Origin: Myxococcota bacterium
GTDB taxonomy: Bacteria; Myxococcota; JAJVIH01
Direction of reading: 5' to 3'
DNA: 64,000 bases
Assembly (NCBI GenBank): GCA_022072125.1
Contig: JAJVIH010000020.1
Coordinates: 62,001-126,000, forward strand
Position numbers and translations under genes: made by a program. Positions 10,943 through 49,165 of this stretch are shown one piece after another; the stretch's first letter is position 1; the number at the start of each line of letters is the position of its first letter. The notes beneath the pieces are model-generated. The model had not been told where the DNA came from, did no database searches, and saw nothing but the letters and a program-made list of their open reading frames with translations.

Positions 10943-12721
10943 ATGGCCTTTGATTCCATTCCCGCACGTTTTTTGGAACACGCCCGCAAGCGCCCCGACG
11001 CGCCCGCCTTCCACGCCAAACGCAACGGAATCTGGGAGATGACGCCCTGGAAAACCTATGTGTCGCTGACCCGCTCCGCCGCCAAATCCATGATGGCGCT
11101 CGGGCTGCAACCAGGACAGGCGGTGTGCATTCTGGGATTCAACCGCCCGGAGTGGGTGATCTTCGATCTCGCCTGCATGATGGCCGCGGGAGCTCCCGCC
11201 GGTATTTACACCACCTGCTCGCCGCAGGAGGTGCAGTACATCATCCACCACACCGAAAGCCCGCTGGTGCTGGTGGAGAATGACCACCAGTGGCAGAAGG
11301 TCAGGCAGGAACGGGACAATCTTCCTCACCTCAAATATGTGATCATGATGGACGGGGCGCCCAAGCCGGACGATCCCATGGTGTTGTCGTGGAAGGAGTT
11401 CCTGGAAAAGGGCGCGGGCGTTCCTGACGCCGATCTGGACGGCCGCATCAACTCGCTGGATGCGAAGCAGCTTGCCACCTTCATTTACACCTCGGGAACG
11501 ACCGGCCCCCCCAAGGGCGTCATGTTGAGCCACGAAAACCTGTCGTGGACGGCCAATATCGCCCGTGACATCGTGAAGCTCAAACCGGATGACATCAGCC
11601 TGTCCTACCTGCCCCTGTCCCATATCGCCGAGCAGATGTTCACCATCCACGTGCCCTGCACCACCGGCAGTTCGGTGTACTTCGCCGAATCCATGGAAAA
11701 AGTGGCGGACAATTTCAAGGAAGTGCAGCCAACGGTGGTGTTTGGCGTGCCCCGCATCTGGGAAAAATTCCATGCGGGCGTCAACGCCAAACTGAGGGAG
11801 GCGACGGGCGTCAAGGCCAGCCTGATCAAATGGGCCACCGGCGTCGGGCGCGAGGTCACCGCGCTGCGGACCCGGGGGCAGGAGCCCTCCGGCCTGCTGG
11901 CGTTCCAGTATGGGCTTGCGAGCAAGCTCATCTTCTCGAAGCTCAAGCCCGCGCTGGGTTTGGGCCGCGCCCGTGCGCTGGTCTCCGGGGCCGCCCCCAT
12001 TGCGAAGGAAGTGCTGGAGTTCTTCGGCAGCCTCGATCTGATCATCATGGAGGTCTACGGGCAGTCGGAGGACAGCGGCCCCACCACGTTCAATGTGCCT
12101 GGGAAAATCCGCTTCGGCAGTGTCGGCGCGCCGATCCCCGGCGTCGAGGTGAAAATCGCCCCGGACGGGGAGATTCTCGTCAAGGGGCCCAACGTGTTTC
12201 TGGGGTATTACAAGGAGCCCGCCGCAACGGCGGAAACCCTGGTGGACGGCTGGCTGCATTCCGGCGACGTGGGCGAATTCGACAAGGAGGGTTTCCTCTG
12301 GATCACCGGCCGCAAGAAGGAAATCATCATCACCTCGGGCGGCAAGAATATCGCGCCCAAGAATATCGAAGAGGCGCTCAAGACCCACGAACTGATCGCC
12401 GAGGCGGTGGTCATTGGCGATCGCCGCAAGTTCCTTTCGGCCCTCGTCACGCTGGACATGGAGCGCGCGAAGAAATTCGCGGAGGAGCGTGGTCTCTCCA
12501 CGGGCGAACCGCACAAGTTGCCCGCCATTCAGGAGGCCGTGCAGGCCGCGGTGGACAACGTGAACGAACAGTTCGCGCGGGTCGAGCATATCCGCAAGTT
12601 CGCCATCCTGCCGCGTAATTTCTCCATCGAGGCGGGCGAACTGACCCCAACGCTGAAAATCAAGCGGAAAAAGGTCAACCAGAACTGGGAAAAAGAAATC
12701 GAGGCCATGTACGCCGAGTGA
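10943..12721 (+). CDS. long-chain fatty acyl-CoA synthetase (AMP-forming)
   Basis: Activates fatty acids to acyl-CoA through an acyl-adenylate. 592 residues. Adenylation motifs are FIYTSGTTGPPKGVMLSH (P-loop), VYGQSEDSGPTTFN, GWLHSGDVGEFDKEGF and ITGRKKEIIITSGGKN, ending with the catalytic-Lys neighbourhood ELTPTLKIKRKKVNQ. It matches the FadD15/bubblegum-like long-chain group in motif wording. The ATG at 10943 is preferred over one 11 codons upstream because GGGGAAC sits 7 nt before it. An aldo/keto reductase follows 7 bp later, so the two are probably co-transcribed. Confidence 0.92.
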   Translation: MAFDSIPARFLEHARKRPDAPAFHAKRNGIWEMTPWKTYVSLTRSAAKSMMALGLQPGQAVCILGFNRPEWVIFDLACMMAAGAPAGIYTTCSPQEVQYIIHHTESPLVLVENDHQWQKVRQERDNLPHLKYVIMMDGAPKPDDPMVLSWKEFLEKGAGVPDADLDGRINSLDAKQLATFIYTSGTTGPPKGVMLSHENLSWTANIARDIVKLKPDDISLSYLPLSHIAEQMFTIHVPCTTGSSVYFAESMEKVADNFKEVQPTVVFGVPRIWEKFHAGVNAKLREATGVKASLIKWATGVGREVTALRTRGQEPSGLLAFQYGLASKLIFSKLKPALGLGRARALVSGAAPIAKEVLEFFGSLDLIIMEVYGQSEDSGPTTFNVPGKIRFGSVGAPIPGVEVKIAPDGEILVKGPNVFLGYYKEPAATAETLVDGWLHSGDVGEFDKEGFLWITGRKKEIIITSGGKNIAPKNIEEALKTHELIAEAVVIGDRRKFLSALVTLDMERAKKFAEERGLSTGEPHKLPAIQEAVQAAVDNVNEQFARVEHIRKFAILPRNFSIEAGELTPTLKIKRKKVNQNWEKEIEAMYAE

Positions 12722-14280: not shown

Positions 14281-15120
14281 TTACCCTTCCGCCAGCGAGG
14301 CGAAGGACTGAAGCCATTGTTCGCGCAGCACCAGGGCCGTCTGACCGTGTGACGGGATGGCGGCGCCGTTGACTTCGCGCACGGGAATGAACCCGGTCAC
14401 GGAACCGGTGAGCCAAACCTCCCCGGCATGTTGCAATTCCTCCACGGTGATGGGCCGCTCAATCACCCCGCCCGCAAACCCGGAACATTCCATCACCCAG
14501 CGCCGCACCACCCCCGGCAGGATATCGCCCACAGGCGGCGTGACGATGACGCCATCGCGCAGCATCATCAGGTTGCCGGTCAGGCTGTCGCGGGCCTGGC
14601 CGCGTTCATCCACCCACAGGTAATGCTCGTCCGCCGGTGCGCGGAAACGCCCCAGCCGCCAGCGCTCCATCATGGCGATGGTTTTGGCGCGCCGTGCGCG
14701 CGGGCCGCGATCATCCGGAATGCTCACGAGACGCACGCCCCGCAGGCGGCGTTGTTCCTCCTCCCAATCCAGCGGGGTCAGATGCCCCTGATGAATGCAA
14801 GCCCCCTGATCATCCCTGGCCAACAGGTTCAGGCGCACCCGCCAGGCGGCTGCGGCGTCTCCGGTGGCGGCGAGGCTGCGGATGAGCGGTTCTGAGAAGA
14901 GCCGCGGCTGAAAATCCAGCCCCCATTCCGCCGCCGCACCCGCCAGGCGTTCCATATGCCAGGCAAACTGCGGCGCCCGCAGCCCGCGGATGGAAAAACT
15001 TTCGTAAAGCCCAACCCCAAACTGGATGGCGGGCGATCGGAATGGCATGCCAACGCCGCCGCCGTGCAGGATGCGGCCATCAACCAGAATCGGGGTGTCG
15101 TCCGGTTCCATCGCCATCAC
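14281..15120 (-). CDS. class IV (PLP) aminotransferase / aminodeoxychorismate lyase-like
   Basis: 279 residues of PLP fold type IV, as in branched-chain aminotransferase and PabC. The Schiff-base Lys is in ARRAKTIAMMERW. The cofactor phosphate region is DSLTGNLMMLRDG, where the usual Glu of ExxxxN is Asp, and VGDILPGVVR and WLTGSVTGFIPV follow. Its size and the LPGV.R pattern suit PabC or a D-amino-acid-type enzyme; I cannot decide. The GTG start overlaps the sensor kinase stop by 4 bp, making it the last gene of that operon. Confidence 0.82.
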   Translation of the reverse strand: MMAMEPDDTPILVDGRILHGGGVGMPFRSPAIQFGVGLYESFSIRGLRAPQFAWHMERLAGAAAEWGLDFQPRLFSEPLIRSLAATGDAAAAWRVRLNLLARDDQGACIHQGHLTPLDWEEEQRRLRGVRLVSIPDDRGPRARRAKTIAMMERWRLGRFRAPADEHYLWVDERGQARDSLTGNLMMLRDGVIVTPPVGDILPGVVRRWVMECSGFAGGVIERPITVEELQHAGEVWLTGSVTGFIPVREVNGAAIPSHGQTALVLREQWLQSFASLAEG

Positions 15121-16598
15121 GTCTCCCCGGCGGGGGGGCCGGGCAGCAGCGGCAGGGTGATCTCCATGGCCGCCCCGCCGCCAGGCTCCGGATTGACCAC
15201 GCGGATATCCCCATTCATCTCCAGAATGGTTTTGCGGGCCATGGGCAATCCCAGGCCGCTGCCATGCTCCTTGGTGGTGAAATAAGGCTCAAACACCCTG
15301 TCCCGCGCATCGGGGGGAATCCCCGGCCCGTTGTCGCTGATGCGCAACACGGCGTGGCGCCCGCGCCGGAAGATTTGCAGGCGGATGACAGCCCTGCCCT
15401 GACAGGCCTCGCAGGCGTTGTCCACCAGATTATTGAGGGCCTGGCGGAAGAGCCCCGCGTCCACCGCCACGGAGAGCGTCCCGCCCGTCGGAATGAAGCT
15501 GACCTCCGCCCGCGCCGCGAAGCGTCCATTGGTGTTGAGGTACTCCTCGATAAACTGGTTGAGTTCGACCGGCTCCGGAGCGGCGCTGGGCAGCCGCGCG
15601 AACTGGGAGAACTCGGTGACCAGCCTGGACAACGCGCCAATCTCTTCTTCCACGATTTCCATCGAGGAGGTGAGCGTGCGCCGGTAATGGGGATCATTCC
15701 CCGTGTAGGTGGCGTTGAGTTGCTGCAGCGCCAACCGGATAGGCGTCAATGGATTTTTGATCTCGTGCGCCATGCGGCGGGCGATCTCCTGCCAGGAACT
15801 GATGCGCTCCAGGTAAAGGATGCGGCCGCGGCTTTCATCCAGTTCACGAACCATGTCGTTGAACGAGATGGTGAGCTGAGCAATTTCATCCGAACCGCGG
15901 ACGGGCAACTGGCTGAAGCGCCCGCGCGCCAGATTTTCGACGCCGTCGGTGAGGGTGCGCACGCGCATGGTGATGCGCCGCGCCAGCATGAATCCGGCGA
16001 TGGTGGACACGCAGACGATCCCCCCAAACACCAGCAGGAACGCCAACTGGTATCCCGCAAGGACGCTTTCAAACTGGTTTTCCAGGTTGTCGAAAATGCT
16101 GGAGAAATGGGTGGAGTTTTCAAAGCGCTGGAAGGTGTCGAGCCCGAGACCTGCTTCCACCACCACTTCGCCGGCGCCGCGAGGCAGGGATTCCTCCAGC
16201 CGCAGCACACGCTGTTGTTCCGCCGGCGCCTGATTGGGACCCGGAATGCTCACCGCCTCTCCCTGGGCCGGACGCCATTCAACGCGCCGCAACCACGCGC
16301 GCCCATGGGCCCAGGTCTTCAGAAACTCCGCCGTTCGATCGGGAGGCAACTCCCAGGGCCCGCCCGCGGCAAGGGCCCGCGCTTCCGCCTTGAACAGGTC
16401 CCGGTGCAAACGGATGACATCGCGGTACAGGGCGGCGTTTTCGCGAATGGAATCGCGCACCCGGTCATTGACGCCCACGCGCAGGCTTTCGTGCGCCAGA
16501 TCCCCGGCCAGCCACAGTCCGGCGGCGAGGGCGATGGTGGCGGGCAGCGCCAGCGCCGCCGCGATGGTCACCTCGAATTTTCCGGGACGCCATGTCAT
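15117..16598 (-). CDS. NtrY-like membrane sensor histidine kinase
   Basis: 493 residues. The chosen ATG at 16598 overlaps the stop of the DUF4390 gene (ATGA); a longer open frame upstream is antisense-like and runs through that gene. Layout: TM1 at about 10-30, periplasmic sensor to about 185, TM2 (FLLVFGGIVCVSTIAGFML), HAMP, dimerisation helix with the phospho-acceptor His (MAHEIKNPLTPIRL), N box (LVDNACEAC), G1 (DNGPGIP) and G2 (GSGLGLPMARKTI). It most likely phosphorylates an NtrC/NtrX-type sigma-54 activator, but no response regulator is in the window. The DUF4390-NtrY pairing is familiar from proteobacteria. Confidence 0.92.
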   Translation of the reverse strand: MTWRPGKFEVTIAAALALPATIALAAGLWLAGDLAHESLRVGVNDRVRDSIRENAALYRDVIRLHRDLFKAEARALAAGGPWELPPDRTAEFLKTWAHGRAWLRRVEWRPAQGEAVSIPGPNQAPAEQQRVLRLEESLPRGAGEVVVEAGLGLDTFQRFENSTHFSSIFDNLENQFESVLAGYQLAFLLVFGGIVCVSTIAGFMLARRITMRVRTLTDGVENLARGRFSQLPVRGSDEIAQLTISFNDMVRELDESRGRILYLERISSWQEIARRMAHEIKNPLTPIRLALQQLNATYTGNDPHYRRTLTSSMEIVEEEIGALSRLVTEFSQFARLPSAAPEPVELNQFIEEYLNTNGRFAARAEVSFIPTGGTLSVAVDAGLFRQALNNLVDNACEACQGRAVIRLQIFRRGRHAVLRISDNGPGIPPDARDRVFEPYFTTKEHGSGLGLPMARKTILEMNGDIRVVNPEPGGGAAMEITLPLLPGPPAGET

Positions 16599-17272
16599 GG
16601 CTGGTTCACCGTGGTCCCGGTGGCGGAGTCCGGCGGCGGGGGCGGAGACACCCGGAAACGCGCGCCCTCCAGCCGGATGAAGAAGTCCCCATCGGCGCGG
16701 CCGCCGCCCAGAAACAGGCCCGCGAACGACCCGAAGAACGTCTGCCGTCCGGCGCTGTTGCGGTGGCCGGTGGGGTTGACCAGGTATTCCCGGGTCTTGC
16801 GCACCAGGTCCTCGTTGACCGGATTGAAGGAAACGATGACAACCGGATTGACCTCGCCGGCTTTGGCCAGTTCCCGCCGGAGACCGGCGGGAACACGCGG
16901 ATACCGGCTGACCCGCTGCAAAACCTGATCCAGACTGGGTTCGCGGAAGCTGGCGCGTTCCCCTTCCGACTGAATGGAGACCAGATATATCTCGTCCCAC
17001 AGATCGTAGGTGATCTCCATCAGCCATGATTTCTCGAAGAGGTTATAGTCGCGGCCCGAGGCGCGCAGCCCCAGCGAGATCAATAGCCGGTTGCGCAACC
17101 CGCTCTTCAGCCGGTTGCGCACCAGCGGCGTGGCGAGTTGTTGGGTCACGTCAAAAGACAAGATCAGGGACTCGCCTTCCTCGGCCTTGCGCCAGAGCAG
17201 GCCATCCGCCAGCGCGGGGGCGGACGCCCACGCGGCGAGACAGCACGAGAGGATGACGAGCGCCCGCTTCAT
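16595..17272 (-). CDS. DUF4390-type exported protein
   Basis: 225 residues with a cleavable signal peptide (MKRALVILSCCLAAWASAPALA). The mature part (LLWRKAEEGESLILSFDVTQQL, WLMEITYDLWDEIYLVS) matches the pattern of DUF4390 proteins that sit next to NtrY-like kinases. It ends in a Pro-rich tail (SPPPPPDSATG). It is linked by 1-bp and 4-bp overlaps to the barrel gene upstream and the kinase downstream. It may feed an envelope signal to the kinase, but this is inferred only from the conserved neighbourhood. Confidence 0.75.
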   Translation of the reverse strand: MKRALVILSCCLAAWASAPALADGLLWRKAEEGESLILSFDVTQQLATPLVRNRLKSGLRNRLLISLGLRASGRDYNLFEKSWLMEITYDLWDEIYLVSIQSEGERASFREPSLDQVLQRVSRYPRVPAGLRRELAKAGEVNPVVIVSFNPVNEDLVRKTREYLVNPTGHRNSAGRQTFFGSFAGLFLGGGRADGDFFIRLEGARFRVSPPPPPDSATGTTVNQP

Positions 17273-18678
17273 CAGTTGATGGCCAGATCGAGGAAATAAG
17301 AGATGGAGAGAATGAAGGCGCCCGCCTCGGTGTCGAGTTTGAGACCCGCGTCCATGGTGACGGGGACGTTGAACGCCAGATTGGGCGTCAGATTGGGCTG
17401 CGGCCCGCGCACCGAGCCCTCCCGCGAGTCGCTCCAGGCAAAATTGGCGCTGGCGTAGGCGTAGGCCCGGTATACGCCCCGGGAGCCGCTGTGAAACAAC
17501 CGGTGATAATCCACGCTCGTGCTGATCAGCACGTCGTCGTAGACCGAAATGTCGCTGGTGTTCAGTTCCATGACGCGCGGCAGGCTGGATTTGTTGAGGG
17601 TGAAATAGGAATAGTCGCCAATAAAAAACCGGTTGAAGAAGGGCGCATCTCCCTGCACATAACCGGCGTGCAACCGCCCGCCCAGGCTGTCGCGCGGAGT
17701 CAGGGACAGGTGAAAGGCGCCTTGCAGAAAATAGCGGGAGAAATTGTAGTCGCTGGCCAGCCTGCTGGTGGATAACTCCGTGGACAACGAGATCAGCGAG
17801 CCGCGGGTGGGAACAAAATCGTCGTCCCGCGAGTCCCGCATCATGGTGAACCCCAGCGAGGTGAGGTAGCTGCGCCCGGGCAGGATATAAGGCGGATTGA
17901 TAAACACCGGGCCGCGGAACGACGCCTCAATCCCCTCCACCCGCAAATCCATGAAGCCGCGGGTGAAGCGGCTGAACGCAAACCCCGTGCTTGCGATGGC
18001 TCCCGCGCGGCGGTACTCCAGCCGGGCGCGGGCGCCGTTCTCTTCCTGTCCCCATTCCTGGCCGCTGTTGTAAAGCAGGGTGACACCCAGGCTGGCCGCC
18101 GTGCCGAGCAGGCGTCCATCGTACCAGCGCAGCCGGTAACCCTGCACCTGCGCGCTCGCCAGCACCGCGCCCGACAGGGATATCCCCCTGCCAAACAGGT
18201 TGGATTCGCCAAATGATCCGCCAATCCAGAATGGAACCACGCCGGAAAACCCCAGGTACCATTCCTCCAGCAACAGCGTGGAGCGCTCGGTCACCTGCAC
18301 CTGTACGATGACCTGGCCGCGCCGCGCCCCCTTTTTCAGACTCAGTTCCACCGAACTGAAATAGCCGGTGTTGAGCAGGCGCAAGCGGGCCAAATCGAGG
18401 TCGTCATCGTTAATCAACGCCCCTGGATGCAGGTCCATGAGCGCGATGATCAGGCCGGAATTGGTGGACTGGTTGCCTGCGACTTCAATGCTTTCCACCG
18501 TCAACGCCCGCCGGTGCTCCAGGGAGAGCGGAACAGGCTGGGCAAAAGCCTCCAGACCCAAAATCTGAACCAGAATCAGTGTGGCCAGCACGCCACAGGT
18601 GCGTAGAAGTTGACGCACCCAACCCGGTCCGGATGGGGTCAAAACGCCTGTTTGGGGGCTGAAAAGGCCGTTAAACAT
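17272..18678 (-). CDS. BamA/TamA-like outer-membrane protein with a single POTRA domain
   Basis: 468 residues. A long signal sequence ends near AQP (about 48). One POTRA-like domain follows (LTVESIEVAGNQSTNSGLI to GQVIVQVQVTERSTLL). The rest is a 16-strand-type surface-antigen barrel with alternating aromatic strands, ending FILSISYFLDLAIN. A single POTRA is short for BamA (five) or TamA (three), so this is a small Omp85 relative, perhaps secreting or inserting a specific partner. It is first in the operon with DUF4390 and the sensor kinase, which suggests envelope-stress sensing. Confidence 0.82.
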   Translation of the reverse strand: MFNGLFSPQTGVLTPSGPGWVRQLLRTCGVLATLILVQILGLEAFAQPVPLSLEHRRALTVESIEVAGNQSTNSGLIIALMDLHPGALINDDDLDLARLRLLNTGYFSSVELSLKKGARRGQVIVQVQVTERSTLLLEEWYLGFSGVVPFWIGGSFGESNLFGRGISLSGAVLASAQVQGYRLRWYDGRLLGTAASLGVTLLYNSGQEWGQEENGARARLEYRRAGAIASTGFAFSRFTRGFMDLRVEGIEASFRGPVFINPPYILPGRSYLTSLGFTMMRDSRDDDFVPTRGSLISLSTELSTSRLASDYNFSRYFLQGAFHLSLTPRDSLGGRLHAGYVQGDAPFFNRFFIGDYSYFTLNKSSLPRVMELNTSDISVYDDVLISTSVDYHRLFHSGSRGVYRAYAYASANFAWSDSREGSVRGPQPNLTPNLAFNVPVTMDAGLKLDTEAGAFILSISYFLDLAIN

Positions 18679-18699: not shown

Positions 18700-18715
18700 T
18701 TGGCACGGTTGTTGA
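18700..18715 (+). promoter_or_regulatory. sigma-54-like promoter element
   Basis: TTGGCACG-N4-TTGA. The -24 box is a perfect match to the sigma-54 consensus, spacing is correct, and the -12 box departs only in TTGA for TTGC. Transcription would start near 18727, running rightward into the hairpin at 18742-18796 and then the SDR gene. Confidence 0.45.
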
Positions 18716-18741
18716 AATACCAGAGAGCGGAAGGACGCATC

Positions 18742-18796
18742 AAAGCGGAGTGCAAATCCCGGGCCTTAAACCCGGTTTGTACTCCGCTTTGTTTTT
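18742..18796 (+). terminator. strong terminator-like hairpin between divergent genes
   Basis: AAAGCGGAGTGCAAA (18742-18756) pairs with 18776-18790 over 15 bp including one G-U pair. A further 5-bp GC stem (18759-18763 with 18771-18775) and a 7-base loop close it. GTTTTTG follows on the right. It reads as a rightward intrinsic terminator, yet no rightward gene lies before it. It could be a leader attenuator for the SDR gene or the end of a short RNA of about 65 nt from the promoter at 18700. Confidence 0.65.
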
Positions 18797-18870
18797 GTGG
18801 TGTTCTGCCGCCATTGTTTCCGGCATGACTTCAAATGGCGGCCGGATTCGCCGGCCGCGGCGGAGGAATG

Positions 18871-19611
18871 ATGTCCCACCAGCCACGAACAGCGGTGATC
18901 ACCGGCGCTAGCGCAGGCATTGGCGAGGCCACGGCGCGCGCGCTGGCGCGTGAAGGATTCCATGTCGTGCTTGGCGCCCGCCGCGTGGATCGGATTGAGG
19001 CCCTTGCGGCGGAGTTGGGCGGCCAGGCGTTCTCCCTTGACGTCACATCCAAAGACAGCGTGGCCGCGCTGGCCGCCTGCATTCCGCAGGCTTCTGTCCT
19101 GGTCAACAACGCCGGTCTGGCCCTGGGTCTGGACCCGCTCGAAAGCGGGAGCGACAGCGACTGGGAAACCGTCATCGAAACCAACGTGCTGGGGCTGATG
19201 CGCGTCACCCGCGCGCTGCTGCCCGCGCTGCAACGGGCGCCGCACTCCCATATCGTCAACCTGGGATCGGTGGCGGGTTGGGAATCCTACAAGGGCGGAA
19301 GCGCCTACTGCGCCTCGAAACATGCCGTACGTTCCTTGTCGCGGACCCTGCGGCTGGAACTGCTGGGACGGCCCATCCGGGTGACCGAGGTGTCGCCGGG
19401 ACTGGTGAAGACGGAGTTCAGCCTGGTGCGTTTCCATGGCGACGCAGCCCGGGCTGAAACCCCCTACGCGGGATTGCAGCCGCTGACCGCGGACGACATC
19501 GCCGAATGCGTCCGGTGGGCGGTGATGTTGCCGCCCCACGTCAACATTGATGAGATAATCGTCAAGCCGGTGGCGCAGGCTTCCGCCACTGTCGTCCACC
19601 GGGCGGGGTGA
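18871..19611 (+). CDS. short-chain dehydrogenase/reductase (YdfG-like)
   Basis: NAD(P)-dependent oxidoreductase of 246 residues. Visible are the Rossmann glycine motif (VITGASAGIGEATA), NNAG (LVNNAGLALG), the catalytic Ser (IVNLGSVAGWESY) and the YxxxK pair (AYCASKHAV). An Arg after the second strand (LGARRVDRIEAL) favours NADP. The second of two adjacent ATG codons is preferred because GGAGGA lies 4-5 nt before it. The best-fitting subgroup is YdfG-like 3-hydroxy-acid dehydrogenase; the substrate is uncertain. Confidence 0.9.
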   Translation: MSHQPRTAVITGASAGIGEATARALAREGFHVVLGARRVDRIEALAAELGGQAFSLDVTSKDSVAALAACIPQASVLVNNAGLALGLDPLESGSDSDWETVIETNVLGLMRVTRALLPALQRAPHSHIVNLGSVAGWESYKGGSAYCASKHAVRSLSRTLRLELLGRPIRVTEVSPGLVKTEFSLVRFHGDAARAETPYAGLQPLTADDIAECVRWAVMLPPHVNIDEIIVKPVAQASATVVHRAG

Positions 19612-19657: not shown

Positions 19658-22414
19658 TCAAACGCCGTCCACGTCGAAGTCGTTCTTCTTCTTTTTGCCG
19701 GGAAGCCATCCAAACAGCATGGCCATCAGTTTGGCGAAGAACCCCTGTTTGGCGGGCTCGACCGCCAGCGGCGCCGAAGCGCCGTTGGAAGGCGGCCGGC
19801 TCCCCAGCGACGAATCCACCTGAATGGAATCGCTGGGCCCGGCGGTCAGGGGAACGCTGTTCCATGCCTGCTGCTTTTTCTCGGAGACCAGCCAGTCGTT
19901 CAGGGAAACCCCGGCGATGGTGTGGTCGCGACGTGGGACATTCTGTCCCACATTATCCTCGCCCATGGAAATCGGGCTGTTGGCGGCGAGAAAATCTCCC
20001 GAACTGCGCGGCGCCGCCTGCCCGGGCGGATACCCCGGAGGTTGCCCATATTGCGGCGGCATCCCGGGCGGCATGCCCTGAACGGGCGGCATTCCGGGGG
20101 GATAACCCTGCGGAGGATAACCTGGGTGCATGCCCTGTGGAGGATATCCAGGCGGAAAACCCGGCTGCTGGGGGTAACCTTGAGGCGGAAAGCCCTGCGG
20201 CGGATATCCGGGAGGCGGCTGGCCAGGGAATCCTCCGGCCTGCATGGGGGGCTGTTGCGGCATCCCCTGCGGCATGCCCATGGGCGGAATCATTCCCGGC
20301 GGAAACGCCTGGGGAGGAGGCTGCCCCGGCATGGCAGGGGCGGGAGCAGGTGAAGGCGGAACCTGCTGGGCCGCTTGCGCCGCCGCCTGGGCGCCGCCCT
20401 TTTTCACCTCGTCCGGCACTTCCTTCATGTTCAGGATGGCCTTCATCTCGCGGCCGGAGATGCCATCCCGCGCAGTGACGGTCAGAATGCCTTCGTTGTT
20501 GATGGCGAAGCTGATCTGGATTTTGTTCTGGCCCTTGGGCGCGGCCGTCAGCCCGTTGAACTTCAGCGTGCCCATGTAATCGTTGGCGGCGAATTGCTCC
20601 GCCTCACCCTGCAGGATCACCAGTTTGAGTTCCTGCTGGTTATCGTGGGCCGTGCTGATGGTGAATTTGCGCTCGCAGGGCAAGGGCGTGTTGGCGGGGA
20701 TGATGCGCGCGTAGCCGCCGCCGGGCAACGCCAGGCCAATCGAGATGGGCAGCACGTCAATCAGCAACACGCCCGCGCTGGATCGTGTGATGGAGTGAGC
20801 AAGCAGCCCCGCTCCCAGCGCCACGACTTCGTCGGGATGGACGCTGTGGTTGGGCTTCTTCTGGAAATGCTCTTCGATTTTTCTCCAGACCAGGGGATAG
20901 CGGCTCTGACCGCCGACGAGGATGATCTCGTCGAGCTCGGTTTTCTTGATGTTCTTGGCGGCCAGCACCGCGTCGCAAACCGCGAGGGTTTTGTCCACCA
21001 AATCCTCGGTCAGTTCGTGCAGTTTGTCCCGGGTCAGGGTCAGCTTGAGATCCAGCGGCTTGCCTTCGTGCATGTGGATGAAAGGCACATGCACTTCCAC
21101 CTGCGGCTGCTCGGACAGGCTGATTTTGGCCGCCTCCGCCGCGAATTTGACGCGCTGCTGAACGATGGTGTCCGAAGGCAAATCAATGCCGTGCTGGCTG
21201 CGGAACACCATGTTGAAATAGTCCACGATGCGGATATCGAAGTCTATGCCGCCCAGGAAGTTGTTGCCGCCCGTGGACACCACTTCGTACACGTCGTTGG
21301 CGATATGCAGCACCGATGCGTCGAAGGTGCCGCCGCCGAGGTCGTATATCAGGACGCGCTGGTCCAGGCTGCGGCCAAAGCCATAGGCGAGAGCGGCGGC
21401 CGTCGGCTCGTTGACGATGCGCTCGACATGGAAGGCCGCCACGCGCCCCGCCAGACGGACCGCGTTGCGCTGGTTATCATTGTAATAGGCGGGAACGGTG
21501 ATGACGCAGCGGTTGATCTCCTGACCGTAGTACTCCTGGGCGATCTCCTTGATCTCCGACAGGATGAGGGAAGACACCTTGGGCAGGGACATCACCTGGG
21601 CGCCGATTTTGACCGCGACGCTGCCATCGTGGGCTTCCAGTATCTCGTAGGTGAAATAATTCTTCAGGCTCTGGACAATGGGCGAATTGTATTTGCGGCC
21701 TATCAGGCGCTTCGCCCCGTAGACCGTGTTCTTGGGATTGAGCAGGAACTGGCTTTTGGCCACGTGTCCCACCAGCAGCTTGCCACGATCATTGATCGCC
21801 ACCATCGAGGGAATGGTGTTGTAGCCACGCCGGGATGGAATGACGATCGGCTTGCCGTTCTCCACGACGGCCGCGCAGGAATTGGTGGTGCCCAGGTCAA
21901 TGCCAATGACCGGACCGGTCGGCGAGGTCAACTCGGGAAGCTCTTCACCCCCATCGGCGGACAGGCTGCCGCTGCTCACGTAGTCAGCGCTTGCCTTCGG
22001 GCGGGCCACCGGCTGTGCGGCCGGCGCGGGCGCCGGAACGGCCGGAACGGATGGTTGCGGAGCCATGGCGGGCATCGCCGCTTGCGAGGGCCGGGCCCCC
22101 GCCTGGGTCTTGTAATACAAGACCCGGTTCAGAATTTCCGTATTGGCCTGATCCAGGTTGACGAAACGGACCACGCATCCACTAACCGATTTGGGATTGG
22201 AAGGATCCGCGGTTTTGACTTCGACCACGGCGCCGGTTCCTTCAAAAACCGGCGCGCCGGAGGCCAAAAAACAGGAAAACTTAACCTCGGTGCCCACGGG
22301 AGGGGGCTGAGGCGTCCGGAAGAACATGCCCGCTTTCTGGATAAACGGGTGGTACTTCTGGATGAATTCATCCGCCGTGTTGTACGGCAATTTGACGCGG
22401 ACATGTGGCTGCAA
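19658..22414 (-). CDS. PilZ-like domain fused to an Hsp70 (DnaK-type) chaperone with a PGYPPQ-rich tail
   Basis: 918 residues. About 1-105 resembles the PilZ-type domain found in Myxococcota (VRVKLPYNTADEFI, PPPVGTEVKFSCFLASG). Its c-di-GMP motif looks degenerate: the DxSxxG position reads FIQKAG. A Pro/Ala linker leads to an Hsp70 ATPase domain from about 168 (VIGIDLGTTNSCAAVV, YDLGGGTFDASVL, VNEPTAAALAYGFG) and a beta substrate-binding domain to about 660. The alpha-helical lid is missing and is replaced by about 140 residues of Pro/Gly/Met/Gln with repeated GYPPQ units. A final segment (GFFAKLMAMLFGWLPGKKKK) could dock on membrane. The TTG start at 22414 is forced by an in-frame TAG four codons upstream, with GAGGG as ribosome site. 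Confidence 0.88.
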   Translation of the reverse strand: MQPHVRVKLPYNTADEFIQKYHPFIQKAGMFFRTPQPPPVGTEVKFSCFLASGAPVFEGTGAVVEVKTADPSNPKSVSGCVVRFVNLDQANTEILNRVLYYKTQAGARPSQAAMPAMAPQPSVPAVPAPAPAAQPVARPKASADYVSSGSLSADGGEELPELTSPTGPVIGIDLGTTNSCAAVVENGKPIVIPSRRGYNTIPSMVAINDRGKLLVGHVAKSQFLLNPKNTVYGAKRLIGRKYNSPIVQSLKNYFTYEILEAHDGSVAVKIGAQVMSLPKVSSLILSEIKEIAQEYYGQEINRCVITVPAYYNDNQRNAVRLAGRVAAFHVERIVNEPTAAALAYGFGRSLDQRVLIYDLGGGTFDASVLHIANDVYEVVSTGGNNFLGGIDFDIRIVDYFNMVFRSQHGIDLPSDTIVQQRVKFAAEAAKISLSEQPQVEVHVPFIHMHEGKPLDLKLTLTRDKLHELTEDLVDKTLAVCDAVLAAKNIKKTELDEIILVGGQSRYPLVWRKIEEHFQKKPNHSVHPDEVVALGAGLLAHSITRSSAGVLLIDVLPISIGLALPGGGYARIIPANTPLPCERKFTISTAHDNQQELKLVILQGEAEQFAANDYMGTLKFNGLTAAPKGQNKIQISFAINNEGILTVTARDGISGREMKAILNMKEVPDEVKKGGAQAAAQAAQQVPPSPAPAPAMPGQPPPQAFPPGMIPPMGMPQGMPQQPPMQAGGFPGQPPPGYPPQGFPPQGYPQQPGFPPGYPPQGMHPGYPPQGYPPGMPPVQGMPPGMPPQYGQPPGYPPGQAAPRSSGDFLAANSPISMGEDNVGQNVPRRDHTIAGVSLNDWLVSEKKQQAWNSVPLTAGPSDSIQVDSSLGSRPPSNGASAPLAVEPAKQGFFAKLMAMLFGWLPGKKKKNDFDVDGV
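20030..20330 (-). repeat. in-frame low-complexity repeat coding GYPPQ/GMPP units
   Basis: Purely coding repetition inside the Hsp70-fusion gene. Units such as GYPPQGFPPQGYPQQP are imperfect in both DNA and protein, so expansion by slippage is possible. Such Pro/Gly/Gln segments resemble disordered tails that drive self-association. Confidence 0.75.
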
Positions 22415-34705: not shown

Positions 34706-37700
34706 TCAGGGTGAGCGATCGCCGGTGGCCGCGAAGTTGCCCATGCGGTACAGGCCGTCGTCGGTGGCGATCCACACCTCGCGGCGGCCGGTGGCCGGAT
34801 CATGCCACACCGCCACGTCGTTGATTTTGGTCACGCTGGAGCCAATGCCGAAAATGCTGGCGCGGTAGTTGAAGAAGCCCGCGTTCTCGTTCTCCCAGAC
34901 GATTTGATCGTATGGGGCCTTGAAGCGTCCCAGGCTGTTGTCGGCCGTGAACCAGACATCCTTCTTCGTGGAATCAACCGGATTGTTGTTGGGCGTGGTG
35001 GATGGATCCACGTACATCGCCGTCAACATCGGGTGGCGCGGGCCGGTGGTCAGACCGTCCGTTCCGCTGGAAGAATAGATGGTTCTCTTCGCGGAACTGC
35101 TGGCGTCGCTCGAGGAAGTGAACGTCGTGAAGTCATTGATCTTCACCACGCCTTGGTTCTGGGCGGTCAACCAGAGGTTGTTGCTGGCGCCGCGGCCCAC
35201 CTCGATCACGTTGTCGTTTCCACCAAAGAAATCGAACGCCACGGTCGAGGTGTCGCAGTTGGTGCGGTTGTTGTAGTTGGGCACGCGGCGCAGACCGTTG
35301 GCGTCGTTGCCGAGAGCCGCCCACATCACGCCGCCCGCAAACTCAAACCCGTTGAGGGTGGGATCGTCTGCGGTTCCGTCGGTTCCCTCCAGGCATTTGA
35401 AGGATGGCGAGGTGATCGCCAGGCTGGTCAGGTTGGCCTGGGTGTAGCCGTCGCGCGTGCCCACGTACAGGTTGGAGCCATCCGAGCCGAAGGCGGTGAT
35501 GTCGTCGGCGACACTGCTCAGGGCCGCTTCGACGCCATTCTCGCCCTGCACCGCCGCATTCGACGGATTCAGGCTGAACAGCAGCGCCGCCGGTCCCGTG
35601 GGTGCGTCCTCGCCGAAATACACCAGGCCGCTGGTGGCGAACACCTTGCCCAGACCGCCATTGGCCAGCGGCGGATTGGTGGACGTGGTGATCAGGTTGT
35701 CGTTGGTGTTCCAGTGGTACCAGTACATGTCCTTGCAGGTGTTGTCGGCGCCGCTGCAGCCGTCCTTGACCATGAACACATCGGCGGCGTTGGTTCCGCT
35801 GGTCGAGGGAACCACATCCACCGACCGGATATTCCCCGGTGCGCTCGCGATCTTCGAGAACCCGTTGATGGTGACGGTGATGTTCTGGGCAGGGCTGGTC
35901 AGAGGCGGACTGGTGGTCTTGGCCTGCAGGCGGACGGTCAGGTTTTCGGTGGCGCCGCAGTCTTTCGTCTGCTGGCAGGCGACGAAGATCGCCTCTCCGG
36001 TAGCGCCGGTCACCTGCAGGGTGGTTCCGCGGCTGGCGTAGGTCTTGGGATCAATGAATTCCTGCGCCTTGCCCGAAGTGACCGTCCATTCCAGGTTGGG
36101 AACGGTGGCGGTGCAGCCGGGGCCGTAGGAGTCCTTGCCAATCACCTTCACCGTATCGCCGATCATCACCGTCTGGCTGGAGGGCGAAGCCACCGCCACC
36201 AGGGCGTTGTTCGGTCCGACAAAGAAGTTGCCCGTGACCACGCTGGCCGTGCAGGAGTCATTGCCCTGGCCATGGAATTTGACCTGCTGGGCGCCCGTCG
36301 GCTGACCAGAGGCGACCCGCACGGTGAAGTTGGCGTTGCCGCTGGAGTTGACCGTGACCTGACGGCGCGCGCCGCCGCCCGTGAACAGGCCGGAGGTGGT
36401 GCAACCATCCACTTGATAGCCGCTGTTGGGGGCCAGCGTACCGTCAACCGGGTTGTCGAATTGGTCGCGCGCCTGCACGGTGACGCTCAGGCTTTCGGTG
36501 TTGTCATTCAGCAGGCATTCGACGCCGGAGCGGGTGCTGGGCGCGTCCAGCGTGGTGATCTGGAATTTGCTGGTGTCGGCGGCGGCCGGGCGCACTTCGA
36601 TGACATTGCTGTCCACCGTGCTGTTGGGAATCGAAGGCGTGATGGTCGCGCGCAGGTACATGCGGCCCTTCGGCGAGGTGTTCTGCACCACCTGACGCTC
36701 CGAGATGGTGAAGTCCACGAAGGAGCCGCCGGCGGTGCCGCCGCTGGTGGTTCCATCAAGCACGCCCGTGCCGGTCATCGCCGCATCGGTGCCGGCGTTG
36801 AAGGCCTGAATGCTGATATTCGAACTGGCCATGTTCTTCGGATTGCCGAATTGATCCTGCACCTCGATGCGAACCGGGTTGCCGCCCATCTTCAGATTGG
36901 CGGAAGCCACCGCGCTGGCGATGACGGGCGTATCCACCGTGGTGGTCGCGCCGCGCTTGAAGACAATCTTGTTGGCGGCGGCGGCGTTGACCACGATATT
37001 GGTTTTACTGCCCGTGATGGAGCCGGTCACCGAATCCGTCGCGGACAACGTGCAGTTGGGCGGTGAAGCCACCTTGGGCGTGAACCTTCCGGAGAAGGAC
37101 TTGATGCCCAGATCGCCAGACGCGATGCTGCCGCTGCCTGGCGTGTCTCCGGTCAGTTTGCAGGTCCAGTCGAAATTGACCGTGCCGGTATAACCAGTGG
37201 CGCGGTTGCCATTCTGATCCAGGGCCTCGACGACAATGTCGTAGGAGGTTCCCGCCGTCAGCGCGCCCGCCTGGGTGTCCACCGACAGGCTGACCGCGGC
37301 GCCCGGAGTGATGTTGATGGAGTGATCGCTGGTGGAAGTCAGCGTCGGGCTGCCGGTGTTTTCCTCGCCGCGGATCTGGATGGTCTCCACCTTCGTGTGC
37401 TGGAAGGCGTTGCCGGTCTTGGTGAAGGTCGCCCGGCCGTTGACCGTATTCGCGCTCTGGGAGGTGAAGGTGAAATTGCCCGCCGTGCCGCTGCGCAATA
37501 CGATTTTGATCGAACGTCCATTGTCGTTGGACACCCAGCGATCGCTGGAGTCGCGCACTTCCACCACGAAGTCATTCCACTTGTCGGTGGAAGGAACCGA
37601 GGTGGGCGGGAGGGTCGAGAACGCCAGCTTGGCGGCGGCGCCGAATCCGACATTCAGGTTGGTGTTGGCCTTCACCGCCGGAGCGTTTTCAGAAGCCACG

Positions 37701-40700
37701 TTGACCTGCACTGTCTCCTGCACCGTGCCGGCGGTCACCGTGTAGCTGAAATCGCCATTGGTCAGCGGAGCCTGACGGTTGGCGAGCCCGGGGTTGGAAT
37801 CCGCCGGCGCGGTGATCCGTGTTCCGTTGGCCTGGCTCAACTCATCCGTGCCATTGGCGTTGAGGCCAACGGTGACATTCGACAAATAATCGGCGGAGTT
37901 GGTGACCTTGTTGTTGTACAGGTCGAAGGCCGAACCCGAAATCGTCGAAGTCGAGGTGTTGTCCGCTGGGATGGACTGCAGGTTCGCCTGAATGGTGTAC
38001 GAAGACGGCTCCGCGGGCTTGAGAGTGATGTTGGAGGTTGAACTGATCGCCGTGGAGGTGATCGTTCCGGTCAGCACATAGTCATGGGTGGCGTCCGTCA
38101 GGTTTTTGCGTTGCGAAACCCTGGCGAAGGTCGCCTTGCCGCCCACCGACACATCGCCATTGACCGTCGCGGTCGCCACGGAAGAAGCAGAGGAGACGCC
38201 GGCCAGGAAGAATTTGTTGTCGTCCCCGGCGGAAGTCAGGGTGACGCTGTCGCCATGAATCAGGCGGGGCGCGCCCTGGGCGTCGGTCGGGGTGACCACC
38301 ACATCCACTTCCTCGCCCGCTTTCCAGGTGGTTTTCGCTGGCGTCACCGTGACACCGGCGACCGCGCCGGCTTCCACCGTCACCGTAGCGCTGTTTCCAG
38401 AGGAAGAGGAAGCGGGCTGGGCCTGCACGGCGGTCACGCTGATGCGTCCCGTGCCCTGGTTCTGGCCATTGGCGCGCACATTGAAGCTGAGCATGCCCCC
38501 GTTCACCGCCACCTGATGGCCCGCGGTTCCCGCGTCGGCGTCGGCTTCCACCACGTCCATATTGTTCAATGGACCAAAGGTATCCGTGATGAATCCGATG
38601 GTGAACAAGGTTCCGTTGGCGAGGGTGTTGCCGAAGCGGTCCTTCAGCGTATCGGTGGTGACGGAAGTGGTGCGGGCGGCGGTGTTGCCCGTCCAGCCGC
38701 CGGAATTGGGCCGCAGGGTGGCCGTGCCGCGGGTCACCGTGATGGTCTGGTTGCCGGGCTTGGAGGGCGTTACCGTGATGGTCTGGGTCTTGTTGATGGA
38801 ACCCGAAACCGCGCGCAGGGTGAAGTTCTCCGCGATGATGTAGTAGCGGCCCGCGAAAGTGACGGAACCCGCGGGTTGCGCTGAAGTTCCGCTGAAGGGC
38901 GTTCCCGCGGTTCCCGGCTCCGGTCCGGTGCGCAGGGTGCTGGTGCCGCCGGTGGCGTCAAGGTCAACCGGGTCGGCTTCCAGTTCGCGCGGGGCGTCAT
39001 ACTGATCGCGGGCGACCACTTTGACATCAATATTTTCTCCCGCTTCCCAGGTGGTTTTGTTGGGCGTGAACTGGAAGGCCAGGTTGTTCAGGCCGTAGGC
39101 GCCCACCTTCACCGCGCTGGCCGCCTGGACACGGGTTCCGTCATTCAACGGATTGCCGCTTCCATCCACGGACTCGGTATTGATGTACTGGCAGCCCTGG
39201 GTGGCCCCACCCTGCAACTTGATGGTGATCTTGCCATCCACATCGGTGGTTTTGGTGGTGACCTTGTCGTTTTCCGGATCGTCATCGGAATGGATGCGGG
39301 AATTGGAGGAGCGCAGCGTGGTGAAGTTGTCGCATACGGTATGACCGTTCACGATCTTGGTGTAACTCGCCGACAGCGGATTATCCGCCAGGGTCACCAG
39401 CACGCGGGTGCCGGTGGCGGCGATATTCTCGAAGCGGTCGCGCAGCGCCGTGGAGGTGAAGGTCTTGATATGCTCATTGGCGGTGGTGGCCGCGCCAAAA
39501 TCGTTGTGGATGATCATGGCAGGAGCGCCGCCGCCGCCGGGGTTGTCCGTGGTGTTGAACTTCACATCGTGAGTATCGGACGGCGCCGCCGGATCCACGG
39601 TTATCAGGGCGGTCTGAGAGTTCACCGCTCCCACCGTGGAGCGCAGGTTGAATGTACCGCGCTTCCGGTAGTTGATATTGTTGAAGGTTGCGTCGCCGGT
39701 TCCCAGGGTGGGATTTCCCGTGATGGTGGATGGCGTCGAGCCGGTCCCCTGCCACAATCCCTGCTGGAAGGTGGTGGTCTTGACCAGGGTGGGGTTGGCG
39801 GCGTCCAAGGTAATGGTGTCGGTGTCCATCAACCGCTTGAGACCATACTGATCACGGGGGGTCACGGTGATGGTGAAAAGCTGGCCCGCCGTCCAGGTGG
39901 TGGTGTTGGGGTTGAGACCGATATCGAAGCTGACAATCGGACCTCCCGATACCTTGAAATTCTGGCCCAGCCTGCTGGACAGATTGGGATCCTTCCATTC
40001 GAGTTGGCGCTCGCAATCGTTGTCGCGGGTGGAATCGTTGACCGCCAAATCCGGCAGTTCCACCGCGCTCACGAAGAAGCGGCCAAAGCCCTGGGTCGCG
40101 CCGGATTTCAGCACGAACGAAACCTGGCTGTTGGCGTCGGTCTTGAGTTGGACGCCGCTGATCGTGCTATCCGCATCCGTCACTCCTTCAAAATCGGAGC
40201 CGGTCGCCGGGAAGGGCTGGCGGACCGCATCCAGCGTGTCGGTGGAGGAATAACTGACCGTCACCAGCACGTTGGCGCCAACCAGGTTGCCCTTGATGTC
40301 CTTCAATTGCGATGAAGTGAGGGTAAAACGTTTTTCCGCATTGGTGGGACCCGCCACATCCGGATGGGCGCGCACATCCACGCCCGCCACGCTGGTGCGC
40401 AGCGGTTGGGTATTGGCCGTGCAGTTGGATGGCGTGCTGAAGGTTCCCGCGGCGGGCGGCCCGGGGTTCACGGTGGTGATGGCGATGGTGGTCGCGGGCA
40501 GGCTCCCGCCCGAGATCGAAAATTCCAGCGGCTTGGTGCGTTCCAGATAACGGAAGCCGGTCCAGGTGGCCTGTCCGGAAGAGACGGTTTTGGTGGACGG
40601 CAGGGTCAGTTCCGGCGGCCCTGGCAGGAAATCGCCGTTGGCGCCCTTGCCCGCCGAGAAGGACAATTGGAGTTGGGTGCTGTTGTTGGTGGTGACGATA

Positions 40701-43700
40701 TTGCCAAAGGAATCCTTCAATTGCGCCGTGACATTGAACCGCTGACCCACCCGGATGGTCTGGTTGGCGACCAGGACGACGCTGGCGGCGGCCCCCGGCA
40801 GCACGGTGATCACCTTGGAACCCGTGCCCACCCCTCCCGGACCAGTGACATTGATGGTCAGGCTGCCCGCCTGCTGGCCCACGTCAATTTCAAAACTGAT
40901 CGATCCGTTCGCCGGGGTGACCTGATGGCCCCCCGCCGCGGCGTCCGCGTCCGAGGAGACAAAGGTTCCCGCTGTCAACGTCGCGGTGAGATTGGGCTTG
41001 GCGTTCACCGGGTTGCCCTGCGCATCCTTGATGTCGGTGCAGGTGATGGTGACGCGCGTGTTGACCGTCGGCGTATCGCTGGAGGAGGTGCAGTTGAAGG
41101 TTCCGGCCGGGTTGCCCGGGATGAGGGTGATGCCCACCGATCCCGTGGCGGTGGAGCCCTCGCGGCGGCCGCGCAGGGTGACGGTCGCGTTGCCAGGGGT
41201 CTTGGAGGATTTGTAGGTCACGCAGATTTTCTGCGCGCTGGCCTTGACCTCCACCACGCCAGTGGTGGCGGGATCGTCATCCGGCGATGACAGGGTTCCG
41301 CCGCCCGTCAGGGAGGCCTCGAATACCTCTCCGTTGGGAACCAGGTTGCCCTGGGCGTCCTTGAGATTTTCGGAACAGACCTGCGAGGTGCTGACCTCGT
41401 CGGCGACAATTTCGCTTGGCGTCGCGGTGACCGTGAGCGTACCAGCCGGCGGACCGGAGATGAGATCAAAATTGAGCGATCCGGTCGCCGTCCCCGGGGC
41501 CGCGGCGGCAGCCGTGAAGTTGGCTGTTCCGGTTTGGTTGGGCGCCCGCACTTCCACCGTAACCACGCCGTTGTTGACGGCGACCTGAACGCCGGGTTCG
41601 GGTCCCACGTCCACGGCGTTGATATTCAGGCTTCCCGTGGAGGTCAGGGTGATCAGGGTTCCATCGCGCACAAGCTGGTTGGCGGAGTCGCGCACCGGCC
41701 CGATGTCCACGGTGGTGGAATCCACGCCATTGGCTACCAGGGTTGTCTTCCCCGCTTTCAGCGGAATCGAACCCACGGCGGGCCCAAGGGTGATCACATC
41801 GCGGCAGACTTCCTCGGAACTGTTGGCGCCGTCGTAAACCGTCAGGCAGAAGCTGAGTTGTCCGCCTTCATTGGGAGCGATGAACTGGGCGTGCGCCGAA
41901 TTGACGCCCTGCAGGTTCACGTTGCCGGTGCGCACGCGCCAGACATAGGTGATCTGCCCGCCCTGCGGCTGGAAGCTGCCAGATCCATCCAGTTCCACCA
42001 CGTCGCCAAAGCTGGGGGTGGCGCCGGGGCGCGAACGGTTGTTGACCGCGTTGATAATGGCCACCGGCGGCGTGGCGGGAAACGGCGATCCGACTTCGAC
42101 GGAGACCAGCGCGGGGGCGCTGTTGGCCTTGCCATCGTTCACCACCAGCGAAAACACCATGCGGTCTGAACTGCCCGGGGCCGTGAATCGCGGCGTGGCC
42201 GAACGCGGATCCGTCAGGGGGGCGAAAATGCCCTGGACCTGCACCCAGCGGTAATTGATGTTGTCGCCATCCGGGTCGCGGGAACCCGTGCCGTTCAGGG
42301 TCACCACCTGGTTGACGCCAATCTTGATGGGATCTCCCGCGTTGGCCACTGGCGGCCGGTTGGTGACCTCGTTGGCGACGATGATCTTCACCTTGGATTC
42401 GGAGGAAGACAGGATGCCATCGTTGACGATCAGGCCGAACTCCATGGTTTGCGGTTTGTCCGGAGCGACGAAAATCGGGTTGACGGTGCGCGGTCCGCTG
42501 ATCTTGACGACATCACCGCTGATCTGACGCCAGTTGTAGAAAAGGGTGTCCCCATCATTGTCAAAAGAACCCGCGCCATAGAGGGTGACCTGGGCGCCCG
42601 GCGCCACTGTCTGCTGAACCCCCGAGTTGGCCTCGGGCGGAAGATTGCCGCGCTTGACGCGCACGGAAACGAAATCGGGCGAACTGTTGCTCTTTCCATC
42701 GCTGACGATGAGCGCGAACTCATAAAACCCATCCGTGTTGAACGATGGCGTCGTAATGGAGACGGATTCGCGGTTCTCCAGAACAATCACTTCGGGCCCT
42801 GCAACCTGGCTCCAAGTGTAGGTCAGCCTGTCCCGATCGGGATCAAAGCTCCGCGAGCCGCTCAGGGTGACGCTCTGCCCGACGTTGATGACGCGGTCTT
42901 CGCCGGCGCTGGCTACCGGAGAACGGTTGGTTTCATCGGGCCGGGCGTTGACGGTCACCGTGGCGGGGTTGCTGGAATCCAGGCCATCGGAAACGGTCAC
43001 GGCGAACTGGTATTCGCCGGAAGAGGCCGCCCTGAACCAGGGGAAGGCGCTGTTCTGGTTGTTCAGGGACACCGTGGTTCCACTCACCTGCTTCCACGTG
43101 TGGAAGATGCGATCATTTTCCGGGTCGGTGGACGCGGAAGAATTCATGATCACGATGGTTCCCGTACGCACGGACATGGGAGTCATCACCTTGGCCAGGG
43201 GGGGGCGATTTTCCTTCTTCACAATGGTGATGCGAACAATGTCTTCCTTGCTCGACACTTCACCGTCAAACACCGTCAGGGAGAAATCCACCGAAGTGTC
43301 GCGGGGCACGTCGGGCGCGGTGAACGTGGGATTGGCCGCCGTGTTGGAGTTGAGCCGGATGCTTTCCGGTCCCGACATTTTCACCCAGCGGTAGGTCAAC
43401 GGCTTTCCTTCCGGGTCGAACGAAGCGGCGCCATCCAACTGAACAAGCTGATTGGGCTTCACGCGCTGATCGGGACCGGCGTTGGCGACCGGCGGCAGGT
43501 TCTTGAATTCGCGGACCACAAAAATGGTCACCCGGTCCGGCTTGGAAGGAATGCCATCCGAATTGGTGACAACCAGATCGAAATTCAGCGTCACTTCACG
43601 CTCGGGAGCGGTGAACCGCGCCACCGCCTCGGCCCGTCCGGTGATGGTCACACCCACCGGATCCGAAGGATCCTGACGCCAGTCATAACGCAATTGCAGG

Positions 43701-44556: not shown

Positions 44557-44594
44557 AAAAACCTCCCTTCCCTCCATTAGGAGGAAAGAGAGGT
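44557..44594 (-). promoter_or_regulatory. terminator-like hairpin in the leader of the giant gene (candidate attenuator)
   Basis: Leftward, ACCTCTCTTTCCTCC (44594-44580) pairs with GGAGGGAAGGGAGGT (44575-44561) over 15 bp with two G-U pairs, and T-rich sequence follows (44561-44557). This is an intrinsic terminator ending 14 nt before the ATG. A -10-like TACAAT (44612-44617) would start transcription just ahead of it; no good -35 is seen. A GGAGG also lies within the stem. The rest of the 44543-44832 divergent gap shows no other feature. Confidence 0.65.

Positions 44595-49088: not shown

Positions 49089-49165
<77 letters not shown>

Follow-up and report, generated by a model that had tools for sequence, protein, structure and literature searches.

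Positions 18700-18797 of a 64,000-nucleotide stretch of Myxococcota DNA (the whole stretch is called the window here) most likely form a small sigma-54-dependent transcription unit yielding an RNA of ∼70 nt, which would probably act in trans as a small regulatory RNA (sRNA). We give this reading a probability of about 0.5. The segment carries promoter-like and terminator-like elements of its own with no coding frame between them, as expected for a small RNA gene. The sequence gives good support for a sigma-54-type promoter leading into a terminator that no gene precedes, whereas the RNA itself, its start and end, its action in trans and any targets are predictions. An sRNA appears to be the likeliest reading of the segment, and a terminated leader of the downstream gene a less likely one.

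A divergent gap with promoter-like and terminator-like elements

The segment occupies part of a 189-base gap between an Omp85-like gene read leftward and a short-chain dehydrogenase/reductase (SDR) gene read rightward (Table 1). No coding frame was called in this gap, and nothing ends ahead of the hairpin, in agreement with the original prediction that no gene precedes it. The sigma-54-like element ends 22 nt from the Omp85 start. On the other side, the SDR gene lies on the same strand as the hairpin and T-run and starts 71 nt past the latter; its best model, YdfG-like, scored below cut-off. The sensor kinase of the leftward gene string has AtoS and LIC_11548 as its best models, both likewise below cut-off.

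Searches with Rfam at gathering scores across the window gave no match in the gap. At E values up to 1 in the stretch around the locus (L001) the gap was again without a match, and the one weak match in that stretch lies inside the Omp85 gene. A repeat or mobile element was considered and rejected: a 190-nt query covering the gap is single copy in the genome, and its only other match below E 0.01 is its own inverted repeat. Elsewhere in the window, a minus-strand gene at 19658-22414 encodes an HSP70 with an N-terminal TIGR02266 domain, the match to TIGR02266 being below cut-off.

Table 1. Coordinates of genes and predicted elements at the locus (window numbering)
Feature	Position	Strand	Remarks
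HAMP-HisKA-HATPase sensor kinase	15117-16598	-	third in leftward string; "NtrY-like" in the original prediction
225-aa gene	16595-17272	-	second in leftward string; no Pfam or NCBIfam match
Omp85/BamA-like gene	17272-18678	-	divergent; first in leftward gene string
Sigma-54-type -24/-12 element	18700-18716	+	TTGGCACG-GTTG-TTGAA; from sequence and genome-wide spacing controls
Predicted transcription start	18727	+	24 nt beyond second G of the -24 GG (18703); placed from element position
Predicted short transcript	18727-18797	+	∼71 nt
5′ tail of transcript	18727-18738	+	would pair with 18800-18811 in read-through RNA
Terminator-type hairpin	18741-18791	+	16-bp outer stem (one G.U), inner 5-bp stem, 7-nt loop
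Hairpin arms	18741-18756 / 18776-18791	+	16 nt each
Inner stem	18759-18763 / 18771-18775	+	CCGGG/CCCGG
T-run after hairpin	18792-18796	+	TTTTT
Partner of 5′ tail	18800-18811	+	beyond T-run
SDR gene	18868-19611	+	downstream; ATGATG start behind GGAGG

The -24/-12 element belongs to an enriched motif class

The -24 part of the element is perfect and the -12 box is TTGAA rather than TTGCA/T, much as the original prediction described them. The -24 GG and the -12 box stand at the fixed spacing (N4) of sigma-54 promoters, but the conserved GC of the -12 box is replaced by GA, and we therefore call the element sigma-54-like and not a proven sigma-54 promoter. The absence of the usual C from this box is evidence against the proposed unit.

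From the window alone the site is not significant, and it becomes convincing only with genome-wide spacing controls. Nine sites in the 64 kb fall within two mismatches of the sigma-54 consensus versus 13.7 expected, which is no excess, and the element is the sole site with at most one mismatch. Across the genome, the pattern TTGGCAYG-N4-TTG has 21 matches versus one for the reversed pattern, or 18 once four copies of one contig-end repeat are counted as one. Allowing spacers of 0 to 9 nt yielded 37 rows, namely 20 at spacer 4, 16 at other spacers, and the site at 18700, which was printed with its shorter match and is hence counted apart from the 20. The nine other spacers thus hold ∼1.8 matches each (two of the 16 overlap N4 sites), and about nine in ten sites of the N4 class in the genome are in excess of this chance expectation. 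The motif class is real in this genome.

The variant -12 box shows the same preference for spacing. Six genome matches to TGGCAYG-N{0,9}-TTGAA were found, four at spacer 4 versus two across the nine other spacers. Besides the site at 18700, the N4 matches are C1:214384 and C1:215380, each before a prepilin gene (L060), and C1:104235, before a Fis-like gene; these gene names were assigned by eye. At least 10 of the 18 N4 sites of the wider class precede a start codon with a ribosome site, and the genes concerned include, by eye, several lipoprotein-like genes and one prepilin. Sigma-54 dependence is common among prepilin promoters. Four contig ends (C77, C20, C9 and C25; L090, L091, L092 and L093) carry a repeat containing TTGGCACGGGGATTGCT, which probably breaks the assembly.

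The proteins needed for such promoters are encoded in the genome, which has a complete RpoN frame of 495 aa and enhancer-binding proteins, with 16 matches to Sigma54_activat at E 2.5e-18 or better and three more weak ones. Contig C4, on which the locus lies, has no strong Sigma54_activat match. The original prediction had also pointed to the NtrY-like kinase of the leftward operon, as a type that usually acts through sigma-54 activators. The kinase is indeed there, as the third gene of the string, although with no enhancer-binding-protein gene on the contig this link is indirect. Moreover, relatives keep the order Omp85, 225-aa protein, NtrY-like kinase, which is present in 18 of 19 loci from across the phylum (L029-L047; in the remaining one, L034, the contig ends before the kinase), yet their upstream regions carry no such element.

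An unusually long terminator-type hairpin

Downstream of the element, a stable stem is followed by a T-run, the arrangement of an intrinsic terminator. The original prediction of a 15-bp stem with a T-run ∼15 bp past the start was borne out in slightly altered form, as a 16-bp stem beginning 14 nt past 18727 and followed by TTTTT. Because of the G.U pair and the position of the T-run, the terminator is assigned to the plus strand; on the minus strand the G.U turns into an A.C mismatch and the T-run is absent.

The hairpin with its T-run exceeds chance. In ten 64-kb Markov sequences, stems of at least 9 bp with a T-run peaked at 9-12 bp in each, versus 16 consecutive pairs here (the script printed 18 bp by pairing on into the loop). 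The stem is also the longest with a T-run across 15 stretches totalling 205,741 bases, a non-random sample made up of the window and stretches around sigma-54 sites. A simple terminator scan of the region from 14 to 23 kb of the window returned six sites versus 8.9 expected, again no excess.

The same sample of 205,741 bases holds 11 intergenic hairpin-T elements with stems of at least 11 bp. Seven of them have the 3′ end of a same-strand protein gene no more than 50 nt away, one follows a tRNA at 49089-49162, and one (L089:18816) is ambiguous. That leaves two without a preceding gene, the present hairpin at 18741-18791 (+) and another at 44561-44594 (-). When such an element lacks a preceding gene, it suggests that a transcript is missing from the annotation. 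The minus-strand example is a 15-bp hairpin followed by TTTTC, 18 nt before a 3278-aa frame (34706-44542) and also in a divergent gap. A looser terminator rule did not discriminate, with terminator-like structures in 15 of 21 divergent gaps.

A predicted RNA with a short 5′ tail and a stable hairpin

Folding of the predicted 71-nt RNA gives -38.6 kcal/mol (z -6.7), a value equalled by none of 200 shuffled sequences. A 90-nt stretch, 18723-18812, reaches -49.1 (z -7.7), a gain that arises because the 5′ tail also pairs with its partner past the T-run. In the model that we favor, sigma-54 polymerase activated by an enhancer-binding protein would bind at 18700-18716, and transcription would begin at about 18727 and stop at the intrinsic terminator at 18741-18796. 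The product would be an RNA of ∼70 nt consisting of a 14-nt 5′ tail (GCGGAAGGACGCAT) and a very stable hairpin. This tail would be the main accessible pairing region, and regulation in trans through it is the most likely role of the small RNA. Expression of the SDR gene at 18868 would then require read-through or a separate promoter.

Should the RNA prove to be made, a sigma-54-controlled sRNA would be added in a lineage that has no close relatives in the comparison set, and the variant TTGAA would be shown to work as a -12 box in that lineage. This would also mean that an sRNA gene can be flagged by an orphan terminator behind a sigma-54 motif in a genome for which there are no close relatives to compare.

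Other sigma-54 sites that run into terminators

Terminator-like structures are not a clear mark of sigma-54 leaders as a group. In the 260 nt downstream of 26 distinct strong sigma-54 sites they were found on the sense strand in 13 cases versus 10 on the reverse strand. Two further sites nevertheless run into terminators without an intervening gene, both chosen after the fact, on reading. At C4:31318(-) (L107, ∼11238-11332), a perfect sigma-54 site leads into a hairpin spanning +3 to +67, after which comes ACTTTTTTTG (z -5.5). It sits between ftsZ and a receiver-like gene (names by eye), and since ftsZ lies upstream on the same strand, the hairpin could be the terminator of the ftsZ operon. 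At C16:34631(-) (L096), a stretch of ∼214 nt that holds no convincing frame closes with an 11-bp stem and T-run at +187 to +214 (z -3.8); a radical-SAM-like gene follows this terminator, and another sigma-54 site diverges at C16:35036.

Together with 18700-18797, these two sites raise the idea that this uncultured, deep-branching lineage carries several unrelated sRNA genes that are driven by sigma-54 and ended by terminators. We hold this wider proposal to be doubtful; if it were true, sigma-54 would control a set of regulatory RNAs beside pili and lipoproteins. A possible sRNA family on contigs C44 and C11 (L064, L069 and L070) was dropped because its T-runs, judged by eye, may belong to leftward promoters, being A-tracts beside TTGACA on the other strand. 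At C7:11728 (L113), a sigma-54 site stands before a frame of ∼40 codons starting ATGAATGGC, possibly a small protein gene.

Comparison with relatives

At an E cut-off of 0.001, the DNA of the gap matched nothing in the other 194 of the 195 phylum genomes. None of the 195 is a close relative, and for that reason conservation decides nothing here. Across 48 regions upstream of relatives of the neighboring genes (19 Omp85, 29 SDR), the pattern used picked out no sigma-54 site, and a stem of at least 10 bp with a T-rich tail was seen in two. One of these (L120) is a 10-bp stem on the opposite strand. The other (L119), found upstream of an SDR gene, was rejected as a sign of conservation: a same-strand stop codon lies ∼25 nt ahead of it, and it is simply the 3′ terminator of the gene that ends there.

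Omp85 relatives (58 genomes), SDR relatives (195 genomes) and the gap itself (58 and 195) yielded no locus that shares the element. Protein searches of the genome contigs with Omp85 and SDR, which for 80 loci covered the protein matches themselves, were also negative, as was a search of viral contigs with the 225-aa protein. Looser sigma-54 patterns gave three poor matches (L037, L042 and L118), none of them with a hairpin and T-run, and three weak DNA matches to the gap proved on reading to be unrelated. In two loci (L147 and L148) the SDR gene lies behind the NtrY-like kinase in the same orientation, which links it to the operon; its divergent position in the window differs.

Alternative explanations

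The sigma-54 promoter might instead drive the SDR gene, with the hairpin keeping most transcripts short unless some protein or condition permits read-through, and the short RNA would then be a by-product. The strand and proximity of the SDR gene fit such a leader, as does the pairing that the 5′ tail could form with 18800-18811 in a read-through RNA. There are also partial parallels in the genome: at C42:13505 a hairpin with TTTTTC stands between a sigma-54 site and a lipoprotein-like gene downstream, and a receiver-like gene follows the terminator at C4:31318. Even so, we judge this explanation unlikely. Just 14 nt precede the terminator and the fold contains no competing antiterminator; sigma-54 leaders show no clear surplus of terminators over their reverse strands; and none of the 29 SDR relatives has an upstream sigma-54 site by the pattern used. 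The original prediction had offered a small RNA or an attenuated leader. The former is the likelier outcome by sequence, while classical attenuation is unlikely because 14 nt are too few to hold a sensor or leader peptide and the fold shows no competing structure.

The two elements could also be unconnected. The hairpin may be an orphan or relic terminator that formerly ended, or at present blocks, another transcript, either of a lost upstream gene or of an antisense RNA from the Omp85 side. In the related SDR locus L119, the 15-bp hairpin with its T-rich tail ends an upstream gene on the same strand, and the gene order has changed, the SDR gene following the NtrY-like gene in L147 and L148 and diverging from that string in the window. 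However, the hairpins of L119 and the window share no sequence by eye, and the window hairpin has a same-strand sigma-54-type element immediately ahead of it whose predicted start falls 14 nt before the stem, so that we rate a relic as quite unlikely. Conversely, the -24/-12 match may be due to chance and the sequence simply the 5′ untranslated region of Omp85 on the minus strand, in which the inverted repeat would serve as a leader hairpin or binding site. The closeness of the element to the Omp85 start, the lack of excess sigma-54-like sites in the window alone, and a weak -35/-10-like pair seen by eye on the minus strand of the gap (TTGATG, 18 nt, TATTTC) favor this view. Against it stand the genome-wide excess of the motif class, the enrichment of TTGAA at the right spacing, the mismatch and missing T-run of the minus-strand hairpin, and a promoter scan that gave no sigma-70-type site in the gap; such a coincidence seems very improbable. 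A small sigma-54-dependent RNA gene remains the reading that we prefer.

Relation to known systems

A hairpin and T-run between a promoter and a gene recall the intrinsic terminator or attenuator of an operon leader, from which the locus differs in having neither leader peptide nor antiterminator and only 14 nt before the stem. Among sRNAs, excerpts of one source report that transcription of glmY in enterobacteria is sigma-54 dependent (PMC3162934). The genome context of our candidate differs from that of GlmY/GlmZ, and the sequences were compared through Rfam, which has no match in the gap. The Qrr1-5 sRNA genes of Vibrio need sigma-54 and the enhancer-binding protein LuxO, as stated in a portion of PMC2680268. 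Control by sigma-54 and an enhancer-binding protein is likewise predicted for the candidate, but the Qrr RNAs form a conserved family and regulate known mRNAs together with Hfq.

Pxr of Myxococcus xanthus and other myxobacteria is an intergenic sRNA whose transcription appears to depend on a sigma-54 promoter; in the excerpts of PMC5568312 and PMC5684412 that describe it, its gene is 108 nt long, forms three stem-loops, sits beside nla19/pxrR, the gene of a sigma-54 response regulator, and shows conservation among myxobacteria. Compared by description, the candidate differs in forming one large hairpin in ∼70 nt, with no enhancer-binding-protein gene on its contig, no such regulator nearby and no conservation found. 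It resembles Pxr in being intergenic, in having a sigma-54-type promoter and in coming from what is probably the same phylum. Sigma-54-driven sRNAs are thus already known as a kind, and the candidate at 18727-18797 would be one more, new member.
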